A stretch of 64,000 bases of DNA from Tersicoccus sp. Bi-70 (GTDB lineage Bacteria > Actinomycetota > Actinomycetes > Actinomycetales > Micrococcaceae), in NCBI RefSeq assembly GCF_001968825.1, contig NZ_MIEU01000018.1, forward strand, positions 62,001-126,000. Reading direction: 5' to 3'. Below are positions 14,779 through 60,138 of the stretch, piece after piece. Below the pieces are notes generated by a model that saw only the letters and a list, made by a program, of their open reading frames with translations, did not search any database and had not been told where the DNA came from. Position 1 is the first letter of the stretch; each line of letters begins with the position of its first letter. Made by a program: the position numbers and the translations under genes.

Positions 14779-15082
14779 GGCGTTTCCCTTCGTTGGGATC
14801 TGGGGTGACCTCATCGTAGGGGGACGCTTCACGTGCTCCCCCCGACGGACGAGCGTCGGTGGACCGAGACCGGGCCACCGACACGCCGCCGCTGGGGCGA
14901 GCGTAGTGGGTCGTGATCCAGGTCACGTAGACCGGTATAGACGTGTGACGCCCGATCACGCACCCCGCGGCCATCGCCGGCCACCCCCGGATTTGGGCGT
15001 GAACCCGGCCCCGGTGTATGGTTCTATCCGGCCCGTTCGCCGTTGTCACCTCCGATTCCGGAGCCTCAGCACGGCGGGCCAC
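14779..15082. other. Intergenic region between pckG and tRNA-Arg
   Basis: There are no ORFs I would support. It must hold the leftward pckG promoter, for which I see no clear -10, and the rightward tRNA promoter listed separately. Confidence 0.6.
14993..15022 (+). promoter_or_regulatory. Candidate promoter of tRNA-Arg
   Basis: TTGGGC (14993-14998), an 18-bp spacer and TATGGT (15017-15022), about 60 bp upstream of the tRNA. A plausible sigma-70-type promoter. Confidence 0.45.
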
Positions 15083-15155
15083 GCGCCCGTAGCTCAACGG
15101 ATAGAGCATCTGACTACGGATCAGAAGGTTGGGGGTTCGAATCCCTTCGGGCGCA
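15083..15155 (+). tRNA. tRNA-Arg(ACG), prophage attachment gene; 3' half supplied by the phage
   Basis: A complete cloverleaf: acceptor GCGCCCG/CGGGCGC, anticodon loop CTACGGA (ACG), T loop TTCGAAT, discriminator A. Bases 15122 onward are the att core, so the 3' part of the gene is phage-derived. After the discriminator A the sequence is CACCA, so CCA is not encoded in register. At attR the displaced host 3' end reads A-CCA, so the uninterrupted gene encoded CCA and integration removed it. The tRNA should still work because CCA can be added by nucleotidyltransferase. Confidence 0.95.
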
Positions 15156-15450
15156 CACCATCATGAATGCCCTCCGGCCCATCGGGCCGGGGGGCATTCT
15201 GCTTGCCCGTCATGATCCAGTAGTCGTCAACGCCGGTGCGCTCGCTGATCTGCTGCGCGATCTCGGCGAAGTGTCGAGGGCTGCGGTTGTGTAGCTCCCA
15301 CCCTCGCCAGACCTGCTGCGGGAACCCGCACGCCAGGGCCGCCTCCTTCATGTTCCAGCCCATCCGCCAGCGGATCAGGGCAAGTCGCGCAGCGAACGTC
15401 TCCGTCGTTGGTATCCACATCTCGGCCACCTGTGTACTCATGCGCGTCAT
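15121..15450 (-). CDS. Phage immunity repressor (XRE-type HTH), truncated by integration at attL
   Basis: A 109-aa product. An XRE/lambda-type HTH is visible in FAARLALIRWRMGWNMKEAA and the following CGFPQQVWRGWEL (about residues 19-52), followed by SPRHFAEIAQQISERTGV. The start is ATG 15450 or, nearly leaderless, ATG 15441. The 3' end is inside the att core: the final residues GFEPPTF are the reverse strand of the tRNA T arm. The TGA stop uses core bases 15122-15123 and host base 15121. In circular phage DNA the stop is absent and the frame runs 41 codons further (see 59763-59886). It probably represses the divergent promoter at 15596-15624. Confidence 0.85.
   Translation of the reverse strand: MTRMSTQVAEMWIPTTETFAARLALIRWRMGWNMKEAALACGFPQQVWRGWELHNRSPRHFAEIAQQISERTGVDDYWIMTGKQNAPRPDGPEGIHDGVRPKGFEPPTF
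15122..15156. other. attL core (35 bp)
   Basis: Identical to 59887-59921. It spans the anticodon-stem 3' side to one base past the tRNA discriminator. It also encodes the last residues and part of the stop codon of the repressor on the opposite strand. Confidence 0.97.
15165..15199 (+). terminator. Phage-borne terminator behind tRNA-Arg at attL
   Basis: A 16-bp stem with one G-T pair, arms 15165-15180 and 15184-15199, ATC loop. It replaces the native tRNA terminator now stranded at 59930-59959. It lies inside the repressor coding region, on the opposite strand. Confidence 0.7.
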
Positions 15451-15478
15451 AGTCGCACAAGTCGCGCATAACGCGCAA
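15449..15478 (-). promoter_or_regulatory. Candidate repressor promoter
   Basis: On the minus strand, -35 TTGCGC (15473-15478), an 18-bp spacer and -10 GACTAT (15449-15454). The start would fall within a few bases of ATG 15441, so translation may be leaderless from Met-4. The region holds repeated TGCGCG/TGTGCG half-sites that could be operators. Confidence 0.45.
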
Positions 15479-15589
15479 GAGTGTTCCTAGCGTGTCGTGC
15501 GGGGCATTTCCCCACGTCACGCCACTGGTGACCGTCACGAGACCAGCCCCCGTCCCGCGGATGGACGGCCTTCAACGTCGCGCTGCATA

Positions 15590-15624
15590 TGGTGTTTGAC
15601 ACCACATGCAGCGCATGGTGTCAT
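15590..15624 (+). promoter_or_regulatory. Early rightward promoter with overlapping operator
   Basis: A perfect -35 TTGACA (15596-15601), a 17-bp spacer and -10 TGTCAT (15619-15624). The expected start is at about ATG 15631, so the first gene is probably leaderless. The inverted repeat TGGTGT-TTG-ACACCA (15590-15604) covers the -35, and a second half-site TGGTGT lies at 15616-15621. This is the expected layout of a repressor-controlled lytic promoter. Confidence 0.6.
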
Positions 15625-15630
15625 TGGTCC

Positions 15631-15831
15631 ATGCCAACAAAAAGCGTGTATCTCACCACATCTGATGTGGCTGGCGAGTTCGGGGTACTGCCTTCGACCG
15701 TTCGTCGCTGGGTAAGCGCTGGCACGATCTCCCCGACGGTCACGACGCCTGGCGGCCAGTACAAGTTCAGCCGCGAATCGGTCGACCAGCTGAAGGCCGA
15801 CACCGCGGCGTCAAAGGCGGTCGCCTCGTGA
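15631..15831 (+). CDS. MerR-type HTH protein, excisionase or Cro-like
   Basis: A 66-aa protein. The segment YLTTSDVAGEFGVLPSTVRR followed by WVSAGTISPTVTTPGGQYKF is a MerR/excisionase winged HTH with the typical GGQxRF-like wing. It is the first gene rightward and divergent from the repressor, so it is either the Cro-equivalent or an Xis-type directionality factor. The start is ATG 15631 from a leaderless transcript; the frame extends upstream to 15589 but through the promoter. Confidence 0.75.
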   Translation: MPTKSVYLTTSDVAGEFGVLPSTVRRWVSAGTISPTVTTPGGQYKFSRESVDQLKADTAASKAVAS

Positions 15832-20099: not shown

Positions 20100-21456
20100 C
20101 CAGGCCGCGCCCGCGCTCGCAGCGCACGCGGCGGTGTTCGACTACGTGCCGGCCGCGGCGATCCGCCCGCACCCGCGGAACGTGCGCGTCGACGTCGGCG
20201 ACGTCCGCGAGCTCGCCGAGTCGATCCGCTCCCAGGGCGTGCTCCAGCCCTTGACTGTGGCCCCGCACCCCGACGGCGTCGAAGGCGAGTGGATCGTGAT
20301 CGCCGGGCACCGTCGCCTCACCGCGGCCAGGGTCGCGGGCCTGACCGAGATCCCGGTCATCATCCGCCGTGACCTCACTGGCGAGGACCAGCAGATCAGC
20401 GCGATGCTCGTCGAGAACCTGCAGCGCACCGACCTGACCGTCATGGAGGAGGCCGACGGCTACCAGGCCCTCCTCGACTTCAACTGGGACGTCAAGCGCG
20501 TCGCCAAGTCCGCCGGCCGCTCCCAGACCCTCGTCCGCGACCGCCTCAAGCTCCGCAAGCTCCCCGACACCGCCCAGGACCGCGTCGCGTCCGGCTCCCT
20601 CACCATCGAGCACGCGCTCGCGTCCCTGGAGTTCGAGGGCGACGAGCAGACGCAGGAGCGGATCCTCAACGCCCGGAAGGCGGACCTCGAATACGAGATC
20701 CGCCGTGCCCGGACGGCGAAGGAGGAAGCCGCGCTCCAGGCCCTCGTCGAGGCCCTGCTCGTGAAGCTCGACGCCGGCGTCACCGACCTCGATCTCGAGG
20801 CGTGGGCTCTGCGGTCGAACGGCTGGACCGACATCGAGAGCGTCGGCACCGACCTCGCCGCGGTCGAGGCGGGCGTCAAGGACGGTCGCCTCATAGTCCG
20901 CACCAAGGGCGGCCGCCTCTGGTGGGCCGTCCGAGTCGGCGCTGTCGACGACGAAGAAACCGAGGAGCAGCGCGGCGCCCGCGAAGAAGAAGAGCGGAGG
21001 GCGCAGCGCGAGGCCGACCTGGACGCCGGACTCGCCATCGCAGGCGAAGCCCGCGAGGTGTTCCTCCTCGACGTCGTCAAGAAGGCGACATCAGAGCTCG
21101 CCACCGAGATCGCCCACCACGCCGCGGTGCACGAGTGGATGCGTGACTACGCGTCACACGAGAAGCGGGGCATGGCCCATCTCCTCGACGTCGCACTGCC
21201 CGACGATGCCGGCTACAGCACCACCAACGACATCGTCCTGGCCGCGCTCGCGGAAGCCGAGCCGGCCCGAGCGCTCGCGGTGATGGCGATCGCCGACCTG
21301 CAGCTCGCGAGCCTGCGCTACCACCGAGAGTGGATGCCCTGCGCTGTCCTGGATAGCCAGCTGAAGGCGCTCGACATCCTCGGCTACCAGCTGACCGACA
21401 TCGAGCGCGAGGCCATGGCGCACTGGGCCGCCGACGAGACGGAGCGGGCGTCGTGA
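20074..21456 (+). CDS. ParB/Srx-fold domain protein, orphan
   Basis: A 460-aa protein with an N-terminal ParB nuclease/CTPase-type domain: IRPHPRNVR, LAESIRSQGVLQPLTVAPH, the C-motif-like IAGHRRLTAARVAGL, and ENLQRTDLTVMEEADGYQAL. A ParB HTH follows (VAKSAGRSQTLVRDRLKLRK). The C-terminal half is a charged helical region. No parA or recognisable parS lies nearby, so plasmid-type partition is unlikely. Phage ParB-like proteins are usually DNA-binding regulators or nucleases. ATG 20074 is behind GGAGG. Confidence 0.8.
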   Translation: MATRSKKADQAAPALAAHAAVFDYVPAAAIRPHPRNVRVDVGDVRELAESIRSQGVLQPLTVAPHPDGVEGEWIVIAGHRRLTAARVAGLTEIPVIIRRDLTGEDQQISAMLVENLQRTDLTVMEEADGYQALLDFNWDVKRVAKSAGRSQTLVRDRLKLRKLPDTAQDRVASGSLTIEHALASLEFEGDEQTQERILNARKADLEYEIRRARTAKEEAALQALVEALLVKLDAGVTDLDLEAWALRSNGWTDIESVGTDLAAVEAGVKDGRLIVRTKGGRLWWAVRVGAVDDEETEEQRGAREEEERRAQREADLDAGLAIAGEAREVFLLDVVKKATSELATEIAHHAAVHEWMRDYASHEKRGMAHLLDVALPDDAGYSTTNDIVLAALAEAEPARALAVMAIADLQLASLRYHREWMPCAVLDSQLKALDILGYQLTDIEREAMAHWAADETERAS

Positions 21457-57754: not shown

Positions 57755-58636
57755 TCACGCGGCGATGGCTTCGATGGTCCGGCGGAGGGCTTCGCGGGGC
57801 ACATGGACGTAGACGCGGGTGGTGGCTGGAGATGCGTGGCCGAGCAGTTCCTGGACGGTGAACAGGTCCTTCTCATGGGCGTATGCGTTGGTGGCGAACC
57901 GGTGCCGGAGGGTGTGCATGGTCCAGTCACCGGGCAGCAGCCGGGTCATGAGCTTGCCGACCCATCGCGGTGAGAGGTGGCCGCCGTCGTCGCCGGGGAA
58001 GAAGTACCCGTGCGGCAGCTGGCGTAGCTCGGCGGCGATCGAGGCGAGCAGCGGGATGTCGCGGTCCTTCCCGCCCTTGCCGTGCACGGTCAGCGTCCAC
58101 CCGCCCAGGTCTTCCCACAGGTCGTCGGAGTGGCCGCAGGCGACCTCAGCGCGCCGGAGGCCGTGCTCGCACGCGAGGCGGAGCATGAGGCGCTCGCGGC
58201 GTGCGGCGGCGAGCAGGGCGGCCTTGTAGACGCGTGGCGGGCAGGGCCGGGGTCGCGGCTTGCCGGCCTTCACGGACGGCAGTCCCGCCGCTGGGGACGC
58301 GTCGATGTGTCCGGCGGTGACGGCCCAGGCGTAGAACGCTCTGAACGTGGACCGTCGGCCGCGCCTCGTCTCGGCTGACCAGCTCTGGCCGCCGCAGAAG
58401 GTGAGCAGCGTTTCGGTGGTGACGTCCCACGGCCCGCCCCCGATCCGTGCGCCCAGGTGGGCGAGGTGCTGCCGGCGGGTGGTGAGCGTCGTCGTCGGCG
58501 CCCCTCCGGCCCTCGCGGCCGTCGCCCAGTCGTCGATAGCGGTCCCCCAGTGATTTGTCAGCATGCTTTCTGAATAGCGCACGGCGCGGCGACTTGACCA
58601 ATCGGCAAGCGACGTCGTACCGGCGCGGCGGGTCAT
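57755..58636 (-). CDS. int: Tyrosine integrase
   Basis: 293 aa catalysing attP x attB recombination in tRNA-Arg. N-terminal SAM-like core-binding domain (TTTLTTRRQHLAHLGARIGG), then catalytic residues: Arg in CEHGLRRAEV, Lys in VHGKGGKDRDIP, HxxR in MHTLRHRFATNAYA, His in LLGHASPATTR, and Tyr in RVYVHVPRE. It starts at the ATGA overlap with the HTH gene (ATG 58564 possible). It has no arm-binding AP2-type domain. The C-terminus IEAIAA resembles a ClpXP-type degradation tag. Confidence 0.93.
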   Translation of the reverse strand: MTRRAGTTSLADWSSRRAVRYSESMLTNHWGTAIDDWATAARAGGAPTTTLTTRRQHLAHLGARIGGGPWDVTTETLLTFCGGQSWSAETRRGRRSTFRAFYAWAVTAGHIDASPAAGLPSVKAGKPRPRPCPPRVYKAALLAAARRERLMLRLACEHGLRRAEVACGHSDDLWEDLGGWTLTVHGKGGKDRDIPLLASIAAELRQLPHGYFFPGDDGGHLSPRWVGKLMTRLLPGDWTMHTLRHRFATNAYAHEKDLFTVQELLGHASPATTRVYVHVPREALRRTIEAIAA

Positions 58637-59430
58637 CGGGTCGCCTCTGCGTCGGGCCGATGGTCGCCCAGGTCGGTCCAGGACTTCGGCGGCAGGCCGG
58701 CGGCGCGGCGCTTCCGGTTCTCCCTGATGCGGGCCTGGAGCAGTTCGCCGCGGCGGTCGGCGCCGGCGTGCCCGCCTGTCGAGCCAGAAGCGGCGGCGGC
58801 TGGGGTGGCGGCCGCGTCGTCCGCCCCGCCGCCCGCGGCGGTGATCACCACGGTGTGCGCCGGGGCGCTCGTGGCGTGCTCGCCGGCGGCCGCGGTGGTT
58901 CTTGGGTGGTTCATTGGTTTGGGTGACATAGCTATGTCACCACTGATGTCACCCCTGGGCGTCGAAAATGTCACCCCTGAACCGCTCCCAGTGGTGTCGC
59001 TGGTGTCACCCCTGGGTCCTGTTTCAGTGGTGTCACGGGCGTCACCCCTGGAATCGGGCTTCTGACGGGTCTGTCTGGCCGGCCTGGTGCGCGGGGCGCG
59101 GACGGCGTCGCTGACGCGCTGGGTGACGTTCCTGGCCCGCTCGGAGGGTTCGAGTGCGAGGTCCCAGACGACGGGCCGGTAGCGGGCGTCGACGTGCGCT
59201 ACGTGCCGCTGGTCGCCGCGACGGATCAGTCCGAGTGTTTCGAGCTCGAGGACTTGACGCATGACCTGGCGGCGGGACAGGCCGACAGCGTCGGCGATCG
59301 TGGCGTAGCTGGGGAACGCGGCGGTGCCGTCGTTGTGGGCGTGGTCGGCGAGGACCAGGAGGATTAGGCGTTGGGCTGGGGCGAGGCCGTCGACGGAGTA
59401 CAGGGCCCAGGACGTGGCCTGGATGCTCAT
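58633..59430 (-). CDS. Replication-initiator-like winged-HTH protein carrying iterons
   Basis: 265 aa. N-terminal winged helix typical of DnaD-N/lambda O-like and RepA-like proteins: LAPAQRLILLVLADHAHND, PSYATIADAVGLSRRQVMRQ, VLELETLGLIRRGD. A disordered Gly/Asp/Thr linker (DTTETGPRGDTSDTTGSG) is encoded by four DNA repeats; the C-terminus is basic (RIRENRKRRAAGLPPKSW). ATG 59430 is at an ATGA overlap. The structure resembles lambda O, where ori lies inside the gene. An alternative is a transcriptional regulator. Confidence 0.65.
   Translation of the reverse strand: MSIQATSWALYSVDGLAPAQRLILLVLADHAHNDGTAAFPSYATIADAVGLSRRQVMRQVLELETLGLIRRGDQRHVAHVDARYRPVVWDLALEPSERARNVTQRVSDAVRAPRTRPARQTRQKPDSRGDARDTTETGPRGDTSDTTGSGSGVTFSTPRGDISGDIAMSPKPMNHPRTTAAAGEHATSAPAHTVVITAAGGGADDAAATPAAAASGSTGGHAGADRRGELLQARIRENRKRRAAGLPPKSWTDLGDHRPDAEATR
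58923..58940. promoter_or_regulatory. 18-bp palindrome GTGACATAGCTATGTCAC
   Basis: A perfect inverted repeat at the edge of the iteron cluster. Its centre CATAGCTATG is shared with the palindrome at 28215-28230. Confidence 0.75.
58947..59050. repeat. Four iteron-like repeats; candidate phage origin
   Basis: The minus-strand motif CAGGGGTGACA/G occurs four times (plus-strand positions 58947-58957, 58969-58979, 59004-59014, 59040-59050). Several copies are followed by a second repeated element ending GACACCACTG. They lie inside the initiator-like gene, as the lambda iterons lie inside O. Confidence 0.6.
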
Positions 59431-59681
59431 ACGGTCGCCTGCTGCGGGTCGAGCGCGCGGCGCGTGGGGCAGGGCCAGATCAGATAGTTGCCGTCGGAGT
59501 CGTGGCAGTGAGCGCACACGGGGTAGATCCCGCCGTCGAGGCGCCGGTGGATCGAGAGGACCTCAAGGATGCGGTACGCCAGGACGTCCGCCAGGCCGCC
59601 CGGGTCGTCGGTGTTGATCACCAGTTCCGCGGTGGGCTGGGGGCTGCGCTCGCGGGCGTCAGCGGGTAGATTGTGGTGCAT
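59427..59681 (-). CDS. Small zinc-binding protein, first gene of the int operon
   Basis: 84 aa. VCAHCHDSDGNYLIWPCPTR holds a CxxC/H cluster. ATG 59681 has AGGAGG about 9 bases upstream. It couples to the initiator gene by an ATGA overlap. No clear promoter is visible upstream in the integrated state. Confidence 0.6.
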   Translation of the reverse strand: MHHNLPADARERSPQPTAELVINTDDPGGLADVLAYRILEVLSIHRRLDGGIYPVCAHCHDSDGNYLIWPCPTRRALDPQQATV

Positions 59682-59703: not shown

Positions 59704-59734
59704 CCCCCGGGCCTGTTGACGCAGGCTGCGGGGG
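59704..59734 (+). terminator. Terminator-like hairpin near attR
   Basis: CCCCCGGGCCTG (59704-59715) pairs with 59722-59734, followed by CTTTTC. Its plus-strand polarity would stop rightward transcription before attP in the circular phage. Confidence 0.6.
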
Positions 59735-59762: not shown

Positions 59763-59886
59763 TCAGCTGGCTTCGGCGAGCTCGTATTCCTCGTCGCCGG
59801 TGGGTTCGATCGTCAGCGGCTCGACGTCCGCGTACCCCGAGCTTTCAGAGACCAGGCGGAGGAAAGGGCGATCTGGGGATCCAGAA
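59763..59886 (-). pseudogene. Orphaned 3' end of the repressor gene (viral-form C-terminal tag)
   Basis: Joining the base left of the attR core (59886) to the core of the repressor gene restores one open frame: TGT replaces the attL stop, and 41 codons follow to TGA at 59763-59765. The new residues begin CSGSPDRPFLRLVSESSGYA and end LTIEPTGDEEYELAEAS. The end resembles ssrA tags (E. coli tag ends DENYALAA). It has no start or promoter of its own here and is not expressed as repressor in the lysogen. Confidence 0.8.
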
Positions 59887-59921
59887 CAGAAGGTTGGGGG
59901 TTCGAATCCCTTCGGGCGCAC
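59887..59921. other. attR core (35 bp) with tRNA-Arg 3' fragment
   Basis: Identical to 15122-15156. It is followed by CA, so the displaced host tRNA end reads discriminator A-CCA, which is the ancestral gene end. Not a functional tRNA: the 5' half is absent. Confidence 0.97.
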
Positions 59922-59929
59922 CACGCATG

Positions 59930-59959
59930 ACAGCCCCGGTCCTCGCGGACCGGGGCTGT
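59930..59959 (+). terminator. Original tRNA-Arg terminator, now at attR
   Basis: A perfect 13-bp stem (59930-59942 with 59947-59959), loop TCGC, followed by TCTCG. It was directly behind the tRNA before integration. Confidence 0.8.
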
Positions 59960-60138
59960 TCTCGCTTCAGGGCCGGAATCCGACCCCGAGAAATGCGCGG
60001 AGCAATCCGACGCACCGCCCTCGGGAATGATCCCCTCCCCCGCCACCTTGGCACCGGTGAGAGGCCTCGTCATGATGGACGAGTGCCACCGGGAGGGCCG
60101 GCCGGTCCACCCGCCGCCACACGGAAGGTGCGTCACCC

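Follow-up and report, generated by a model that had tools for sequence, protein, structure and literature searches.

Integration-dependent immunity has been described, in those parts of the sources that are available, for mycobacteriophages, M. abscessus prophages, Gordonia phages and Bifidobacterium prophages. In mycobacteriophage BPs, the best comparison for the locus studied here, a Cys codon of the repressor is converted into a stop by the host base adjoining a 35-bp tRNA-Arg core (available text of PMC9262239). Among M. abscessus prophages, the attL stop comes from the first bacterial base in MabC, MabK, MabN and MabO, where the integrase may lie 3-5 genes away, and the tRNA faces the repressor in MabB and MabK (available text of PMC8092301). 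We report that a 44.8-kb prophage in the window (i.e., the whole stretch of 64,000 nucleotides analysed here) very probably carries an immunity system of this kind. The arrangement itself is already known, and the present locus adds another member.

The prophage, with a tyrosine integrase at its right end and HTH regulators at its left end, lies between two 35-bp cores at a tRNA-Arg(ACG) gene:

15083 to 15156, plus strand: host tRNA-Arg(acg) gene, the integration target, intact in the lysogen (ARAGORN)
15122 to 15156, no strand: attL core, 35 bp, the 3' end of the tRNA gene, identical to 59887-59921
59887 to 59921, no strand: attR core, 35 bp, identical to 15122-15156

A search of the window with the core 23-mer, with up to 3 mismatches allowed, gave two matches, both exact (15134-15156 and 59899-59921; 0 expected by chance), and in the alignment of attL against attR the 35-bp identity stops at 15121 (T) vs 59886 (A). 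Both other genomes available for the genus (three in total) present an empty site in which the tRNA is followed directly by the host right flank (of 152 bases, 124 and 110 aligned at 92% identity). As both congeners carry the uninterrupted tRNA together with the host sequence that now lies beyond attR, the boundaries of the prophage are firm. The host tRNA is intact at attL and ARAGORN found no tRNA gene inside the prophage, i.e., the locus does not represent tRNA-dependent lysogeny. The CCA end of the tRNA differs between the two states, A-CCA being encoded at attB and A-CAC being read at attL (15155-15158 vs 59920-59923); as attL does not encode CCA, the tRNA-Arg of the lysogen would need to receive it from nucleotidyltransferase.

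The attP site is located inside the repressor open reading frame, and integration shortens the C-terminus of the protein by a stop at attL. The features of this junction are as follows:

15121 to 15450, minus strand: repressor gene in the short form of the lysogen (109 aa); ATG 15441 is probably the real start (106 aa)
15121 to 15123, minus strand: TGA stop created at attL by host base 15121 together with two bases of the core; attP reads TGT
59763 to 59888, minus strand: C-terminal extension of the long repressor encoded in attP, 41 codons plus stop, ending in LAEAS

The short open reading frame (15450 to 15121) has the C-terminus VRPKGFEPPTF and reads DGVRPKGFEPPTF followed by TGA; the third base of this stop is the complement of host base 15121, which by hand count falls in the anticodon stem of the tRNA. 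In attP the same codon is TGT (Cys), with phage base 59886 supplying the third position, and the frame continues for 41 further codons to a stop at 59765-59763, which yields a protein of 150 aa with the C-terminus GDEEYELAEAS. The earlier note had placed the end of the repressor in the attL core, with a TGA composed of core bases 15122-15123 and host base 15121, and this proved exact in every coordinate. It had also proposed a TGT codon and an open frame of about 150 aa in attP, so that only the prophage would encode the 109-aa form; the reconstructed attP gives precisely this codon and 150 aa, with attL reading TGA and attP reading through. The fourth codon of the repressor is Met in all six aligned homologues and coincides with the annotated start in Brujita; judging from this conserved Met and a promoter-like element, the real forms of the protein probably have 106 and 147 aa and are translated from a leaderless message. 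An AlphaFold2 model based on a 29-row alignment places five helices in residues 19-81 with high confidence, while the last 20 residues average 50-53 and the linker and core form a low-confidence tail. The att core as modelled thus fits a tail region that would be free to carry a stop or a degron.

The open frame in attP is weak evidence by itself, as at 62% of the positions and frames of the prophage a frame stays open for at least 41 codons by chance, and we rejected it as stand-alone evidence for this reason. The codon score of the extension was the best of the six frames, but narrowly so (0.064 vs 0.045 for the opposite strand), and its last 25 codons have a codon score of 0.42. No homologues of the 41-aa tail were found in phages, the sole matches being two records of one unrelated phage (E 8). 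As the openness and the codon score of the attP frame say little, the case must rest on relatives.

The same core in the same frame occurs in five phages, i.e., Barebow, UmaThurman, Liefie, Paito and Angel. At the position of the TGA supplied by the host tRNA, these five and viral contig L085 carry TGT or TGG; in Bakery, a related core is read in a different frame. The exact 28-base core pattern was present in 16 stretches of viral contigs, with T or G as the next base in six and A (i.e., TGA) in ten. Among the six T or G stretches, L085 encodes an HTH protein (identified by eye) whose long form ends in -GRAA, and the other five contain no HTH repressor in frame. The contig ends at the stop base in four of the ten TGA stretches (L084, which is the prophage's own contig, L092, L093 and L097); two continue as tRNA (L095 and L096) and four do not (L086, L088, L089 and L094). 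L092, L093 and L096 encode HTH proteins (again by eye) that terminate at the core, in the manner expected for the lysogen. L086 (8579-8894) encodes an HTH-like protein of another type that ends in KGFEPPTF, with TGA directly after the core; the 39 next bases agree with the tRNA at only 11 positions, and ARAGORN made no tRNA call at this place. L086 counts against the proposed switch: as it stops at the core in a non-tRNA context, probably not every such repressor opens in attP. It may represent an attP in which the core is directly followed by a stop or, alternatively, a tandem insertion. Two of the contigs showed further peculiarities. In L092 (12302-12647), where an HTH-like repressor of yet another type ends in KGFEPPTF, a terminator-like hairpin and seven Ts adjoin the core within the coding region. 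In L087, the core, located at the contig end, reads in frame and without a stop straight into the open reading frame of a tyrosine integrase, a possible repressor-tail/integrase fusion.

The C-termini of the long repressors were counted in 12 free phages, which are related to each other so that the rows are not independent. All 12 long repressors end in A or S, as compared to 42 of the 135 other genes of the same loci, and six of them end in -AA, as compared to 5 of 135. This count left out Grizzly (a sister of Angel), Nadezda (no repressor gene seen beside the integrase), prophage records, one YungMoney gene and genes truncated at the edge of a locus. Eight of the 12 phages have an integrase that ends in -AA, Angel, Liefie, Paito and Barebow being the exceptions (as annotated). 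The long repressor of the prophage ends in AEAS, which is within the A/S pattern of all 12 phages but is not the canonical -AA; comparable ends are found in Barebow (RRAS) and in Angel and Liefie of the BPs group (DKAS). The integrase of the prophage ends in EAIAA, which is ssrA-like by sequence, and the host tmRNA tag, ANSKRTDFALAA, ends in ALAA. For BPs, the available text of PMC4557955 ascribes the inactivity of the long form to degradation through an ssrA-like tag, while that of PMC8092301 groups BPs with the systems lacking such tags. Degradation of the long form thus appears likely, and its signal may or may not be an ssrA-like tag.

The strong bias in the C-termini of the relatives' tails is difficult to reconcile with a neutral tail. 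It would be neutral if the stop were a by-product of integration into a tRNA gene, with both forms of the repressor equally stable and active and with integration not being the lysogeny decision. This reading would account for an open frame that is cheap in GC-rich DNA, for a tail with neither a homologue nor a canonical -AA, and for L086, where the same core is followed by a stop in a non-tRNA context. Nevertheless, in addition to the biased tails, the long form of BPs is inactive through targeted degradation (PMC4557955, as far as available) and several repressor types have the same junction design, and we thus regard a by-product as improbable as compared to integration-dependent immunity.

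Upstream of the repressor gene, the following elements were identified:

15456 to 15478, minus strand: conserved repressor promoter/operator-like element (Prep)
15590 to 15604, no strand: palindrome TGGTGTTTGACACCA over the rightward TTGACA, a putative early-promoter operator
15589 to 15831, plus strand: divergent small HTH_17 gene, excisionase/Cro-like, whose start may be at 15631

Prep consists of TTGCGC-18-GACTAT and ends 7 nt before the ATG of the fourth codon, the distance being 5-7 nt in the nine relatives compared. Of 27 loci, 19 have the motif RYGTCAARYRY upstream of the repressor gene (in L030 and L034 it is about 270 bp away and reversed), vs one match per 12 kb overall, and 10 contain the Prep element with no more than one mismatch. 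These counts are descriptive, the patterns having been drawn by eye from some of the counted loci; of 45 loci, the control-motif count used 20 and another comparison 28. The palindrome and Prep are predicted, and likely, to function as operator and promoter, respectively. The 11-bp operator match was rejected as stand-alone evidence, since 0.50 matches are expected per window and only its position favours it. Apart from this site, a looser operator pattern is matched only once in the prophage (at 20489), and we therefore do not claim a multi-operator array. A consensus promoter and terminator scan of 15000-15700 found neither.

Homology of the repressor to characterized proteins carries the case. 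Its best PHROG is phrog_2328, transcriptional repressor (E 3e-23), which is also the best PHROG for Brujita gp34 (1e-39) and for gp33 of Angel, a member of the BPs group (3e-41), and over residues 1-105 the repressor is 45% identical to Brujita gp34. Homology, and not layout alone, thus supports the parallel to BPs and Brujita drawn in the earlier note. Together with this common PHROG, the published TGT to TGA change of the BPs Cys codon beside a 35-bp tRNA-Arg core is what the assignment rests upon. Using tblastn (E <= 1e-3), relatives were found in 57 phage records, many of them annotated as immunity repressor, including Elesar, Popper, Bowser, MagicMan, Brujita and M. abscessus prophages; two M. 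abscessus prophage records annotate attP within the immunity repressor. The DNA-binding domain is 51-64% identical, over the N-terminal part, to the repressors of Brujita (gp34), Bowser (gp40), Popper and Elesar, with which the locus also has the Prep and rightward promoter elements in common. The M. abscessus prophages (sequences compared for prophi91-3, 62-3, 108-1 and 53-3) differ in their host and their attB sites. Genome contigs contained 11 repressor loci, five of which have an opposite-strand tRNA at the 3' end of the repressor; in three of these five the stop lies inside the tRNA and in two (L022 and L027) the frame runs through it.

Pfam recognized no domain in the 109-aa repressor, and a close homologue in Arthrobacter phage Popper is annotated as Cro, a different Popper gene being called the immunity repressor. 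Both would fit a 109-aa gene that is a Cro-like or accessory regulator, with another gene holding immunity. We consider this quite unlikely, as the gene has the same best PHROG as Brujita gp34 and BPs-group gp33, is separated by an operator-like palindrome from a divergent, excisionase-like gene, and has homologues in Bowser, MagicMan and M. abscessus prophages that are annotated as immunity repressor. As for the Popper protein itself (gp41, L010:3989-4432), it is annotated as a Cro protein yet is a homologue of integration-dependent immunity repressors, and sequence comparison suggests that this annotation is probably wrong.

On the integrase side of the prophage, three genes follow the repressor tail on the same strand:

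59427 to 59681, minus strand: 84-aa open reading frame downstream of the repressor tail
58633 to 59517, minus strand: HTH_36 replication-initiator-like gene between the repressor tail and the integrase
57755 to 58636, minus strand: tyrosine integrase, no arm-binding domain seen, ending in TIEAIAA

Repressor and integrase have the same strand and order across attP, with the 84-aa open reading frame and the HTH_36 gene intervening, and they may be co-transcribed in the phage. None of 15 candidate relatives of the 84-aa open reading frame in viral contigs was confirmed. Integration would also disconnect the HTH_36 gene (58633-59517) from the repressor promoter. Between the repressor tail and the 84-aa open reading frame, a GC-rich hairpin (59704-59734, plus strand) followed by CTTTTCGTT (-23.8 kcal/mol, z -2.1) may shield attP from plus-strand transcription. 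In the integrase, Pfam sees the catalytic domain only, and the PHROG alignment begins at residue 32, so that an arm-binding domain would have little space.

The integrase shares 58% identity with that of Barebow and 48% with Angel gp32, as compared to 30% for Brujita and 26% for Elesar. For the repressor domain, on the other hand, the closest relatives are those of Elesar and Popper (64% identity in the N-terminal part), and BLASTP against Angel gp33 gave nothing significant (E 0.29). As repressor and integrase have different relatives, the cassette appears chimeric, i.e., a Brujita/Arthrobacter-type repressor domain joined in frame to a BPs/Barebow-type core and integrase. BPs and its relatives in cluster G (gp33, 136 aa shortened to 103 aa) likewise have a 35-bp tRNA-Arg core inside the 3' end of the repressor gene, a Cys codon that the first base of the host converts into TGA (PMC9262239, available text), a related integrase and, in Angel and Liefie, tails ending in -AS. 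They differ, by a comparison made through Angel rather than BPs itself, in the DNA-binding domain of the repressor, and also in that two genes lie between repressor tail and integrase in the prophage studied here. The group of Brujita, Bowser, Popper and Elesar has a different integrase (compared for Elesar and Brujita) and a different attP, and the attP of Popper and Elesar does not rebuild a tRNA. Curtobacterium phage Barebow (gp19/gp18) has the same core frame (GVRSKGLEPPTFCS), a tail ending in -RRAS, the related integrase and a hairpin (z -5.5), but its repressor is only 31% identical in the alignment and is followed directly by the integrase. That the prophage is a defective remnant incapable of excision, with the truncated gene being a product of decay, is very improbable, given that both cores are exact and that the integrase and the control elements are intact.

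The DNA next to the tRNA gene contains two hairpins, one in the lysogen at attL and one that belongs to the host:

15165 to 15199, plus strand: hairpin within the coding DNA of the repressor, 8 nt beyond the end of the tRNA; putative tRNA terminator supplied by the phage
59929 to 59960, plus strand: hairpin of the host, located behind the tRNA in attB and moved past attR by the prophage

The prophage hairpin has 16 bp (-34.9 kcal/mol, z -6.2) and the host hairpin, which starts 7 bases past the tRNA, has 14 bp (-31.9 kcal/mol, z -6.0); a similar hairpin sequence follows the tRNA in both congeners. A U-run terminator scan (15000-15700) did not call the prophage hairpin. Among 26 repressor genes whose tRNA end could be located, 17 had z <= -2 in the 50 nt adjoining the tRNA, as compared to 16 of 201 control windows in the same genes. 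For this test 28 genes were entered, of which L029 and L042 were dropped as the T-loop pattern failed; the near-pairs Liefie/Paito and Brujita/L044 were both counted, and 150 shuffles were used per test window and 60 per control window. A single long hairpin was recognized by eye in about nine of the 17, i.e., in the window, Barebow, UmaThurman, Bakery, YungMoney, L085, L086 and L092, and further off in EricDab. The hairpins of L092 and L086 have T-rich tails and resemble textbook terminators, while the tails of the prophage and host hairpins are weak. As nine of the 26 repressor genes, including Liefie and Paito of the BPs group, show no significant fold, the switch does not need the hairpin. 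Some contigs with the same core but without a repressor also have hairpins at this place (by eye, without a count), and the hairpin may be a general habit of tRNA-integrating elements. We infer that it serves as a replacement terminator for the tRNA and would also shield the repressor gene from antisense transcription. It seems about an even bet that such a terminator stops antisense tRNA transcription through a gene essential to the lysogen, and that varied repressor domains and integrases have been joined to att modules by recombination. No published description of such a replacement-terminator hairpin was found in the literature searched, as far as its texts were available; in one match the word terminator referred to a tail protein.

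A sister lineage was found in a prophage of Arthrobacter sp. Leaf141 (L020, L108 and L109), which has the closest repressor among the 11 genome loci (69%). This prophage appears to split tRNA-Arg(tct), with the 5' half at the repressor end and the 3' half at a distance of about 40 kb; a single further match in the Leaf141 genome, beside the prophage integrase, covers 65 of the 74 bases of a tRNA-Arg(tct). The first bases of this integrase-side copy lie under a run of N, and ARAGORN makes no call there. Phages Popper and Elesar (L010 and L011) carry a complete tRNA-Arg(tct) beside the integrase. In the sister lineage, a TAC (Tyr) codon of attP is read as TAG at attL, with loss of a tail that ends in EIAA, and by sequence this lineage looks like a combination of integration-dependent immunity and tRNA-dependent lysogeny in one phage. 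Popper and Elesar are not named in the available main text of a 2024 paper on tRNA-dependent lysogeny, and the word repressor is absent from the available text of a 2026 paper on the Popper/Elesar cluster.

Overall, these data are consistent with the following switch. In the free phage, the repressor gene would run through attP and encode the long protein, whose extra C-terminal tail would mark it for proteolysis, leaving the early promoter active. The integrase, whose own C-terminus is the ssrA-like -IAA, would recombine attP with the tRNA-Arg gene, and at attL the host tRNA base would turn the Cys codon into a stop, with loss of the tail. The short repressor could then accumulate, bind the palindrome at the rightward promoter and hold lysogeny. 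Integration would also cut the integrase side off from the repressor promoter, and would leave the tRNA intact with the phage-supplied hairpin as its new terminator.

The locus represents a BPs-type junction in an actinobacterial host other than Mycobacterium, with a repressor domain of another lineage, which suggests that DNA-binding domain and att-core tail can be exchanged as modules. The PEPCK of the host is 69% identical to that of an Arthrobacter genome, 66% to that of Dactylosporangium, 64% to those of four Mycobacterium genomes and 55-56% to those of Rathayibacter and Microcella (matches in 8 of 9 genomes), which places the host among the actinobacteria but in none of these genera; a search for 16S in the assembly gave no match. 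The hairpin offers a testable explanation of why the Pro-Gly-Asp linker recurs and of how a gene that converges on a tRNA gene avoids antisense transcription. We predict that other small HTH genes that end in KGFEPPTF beside tRNA-Arg may be truncated immunity repressors and not odd annotations.
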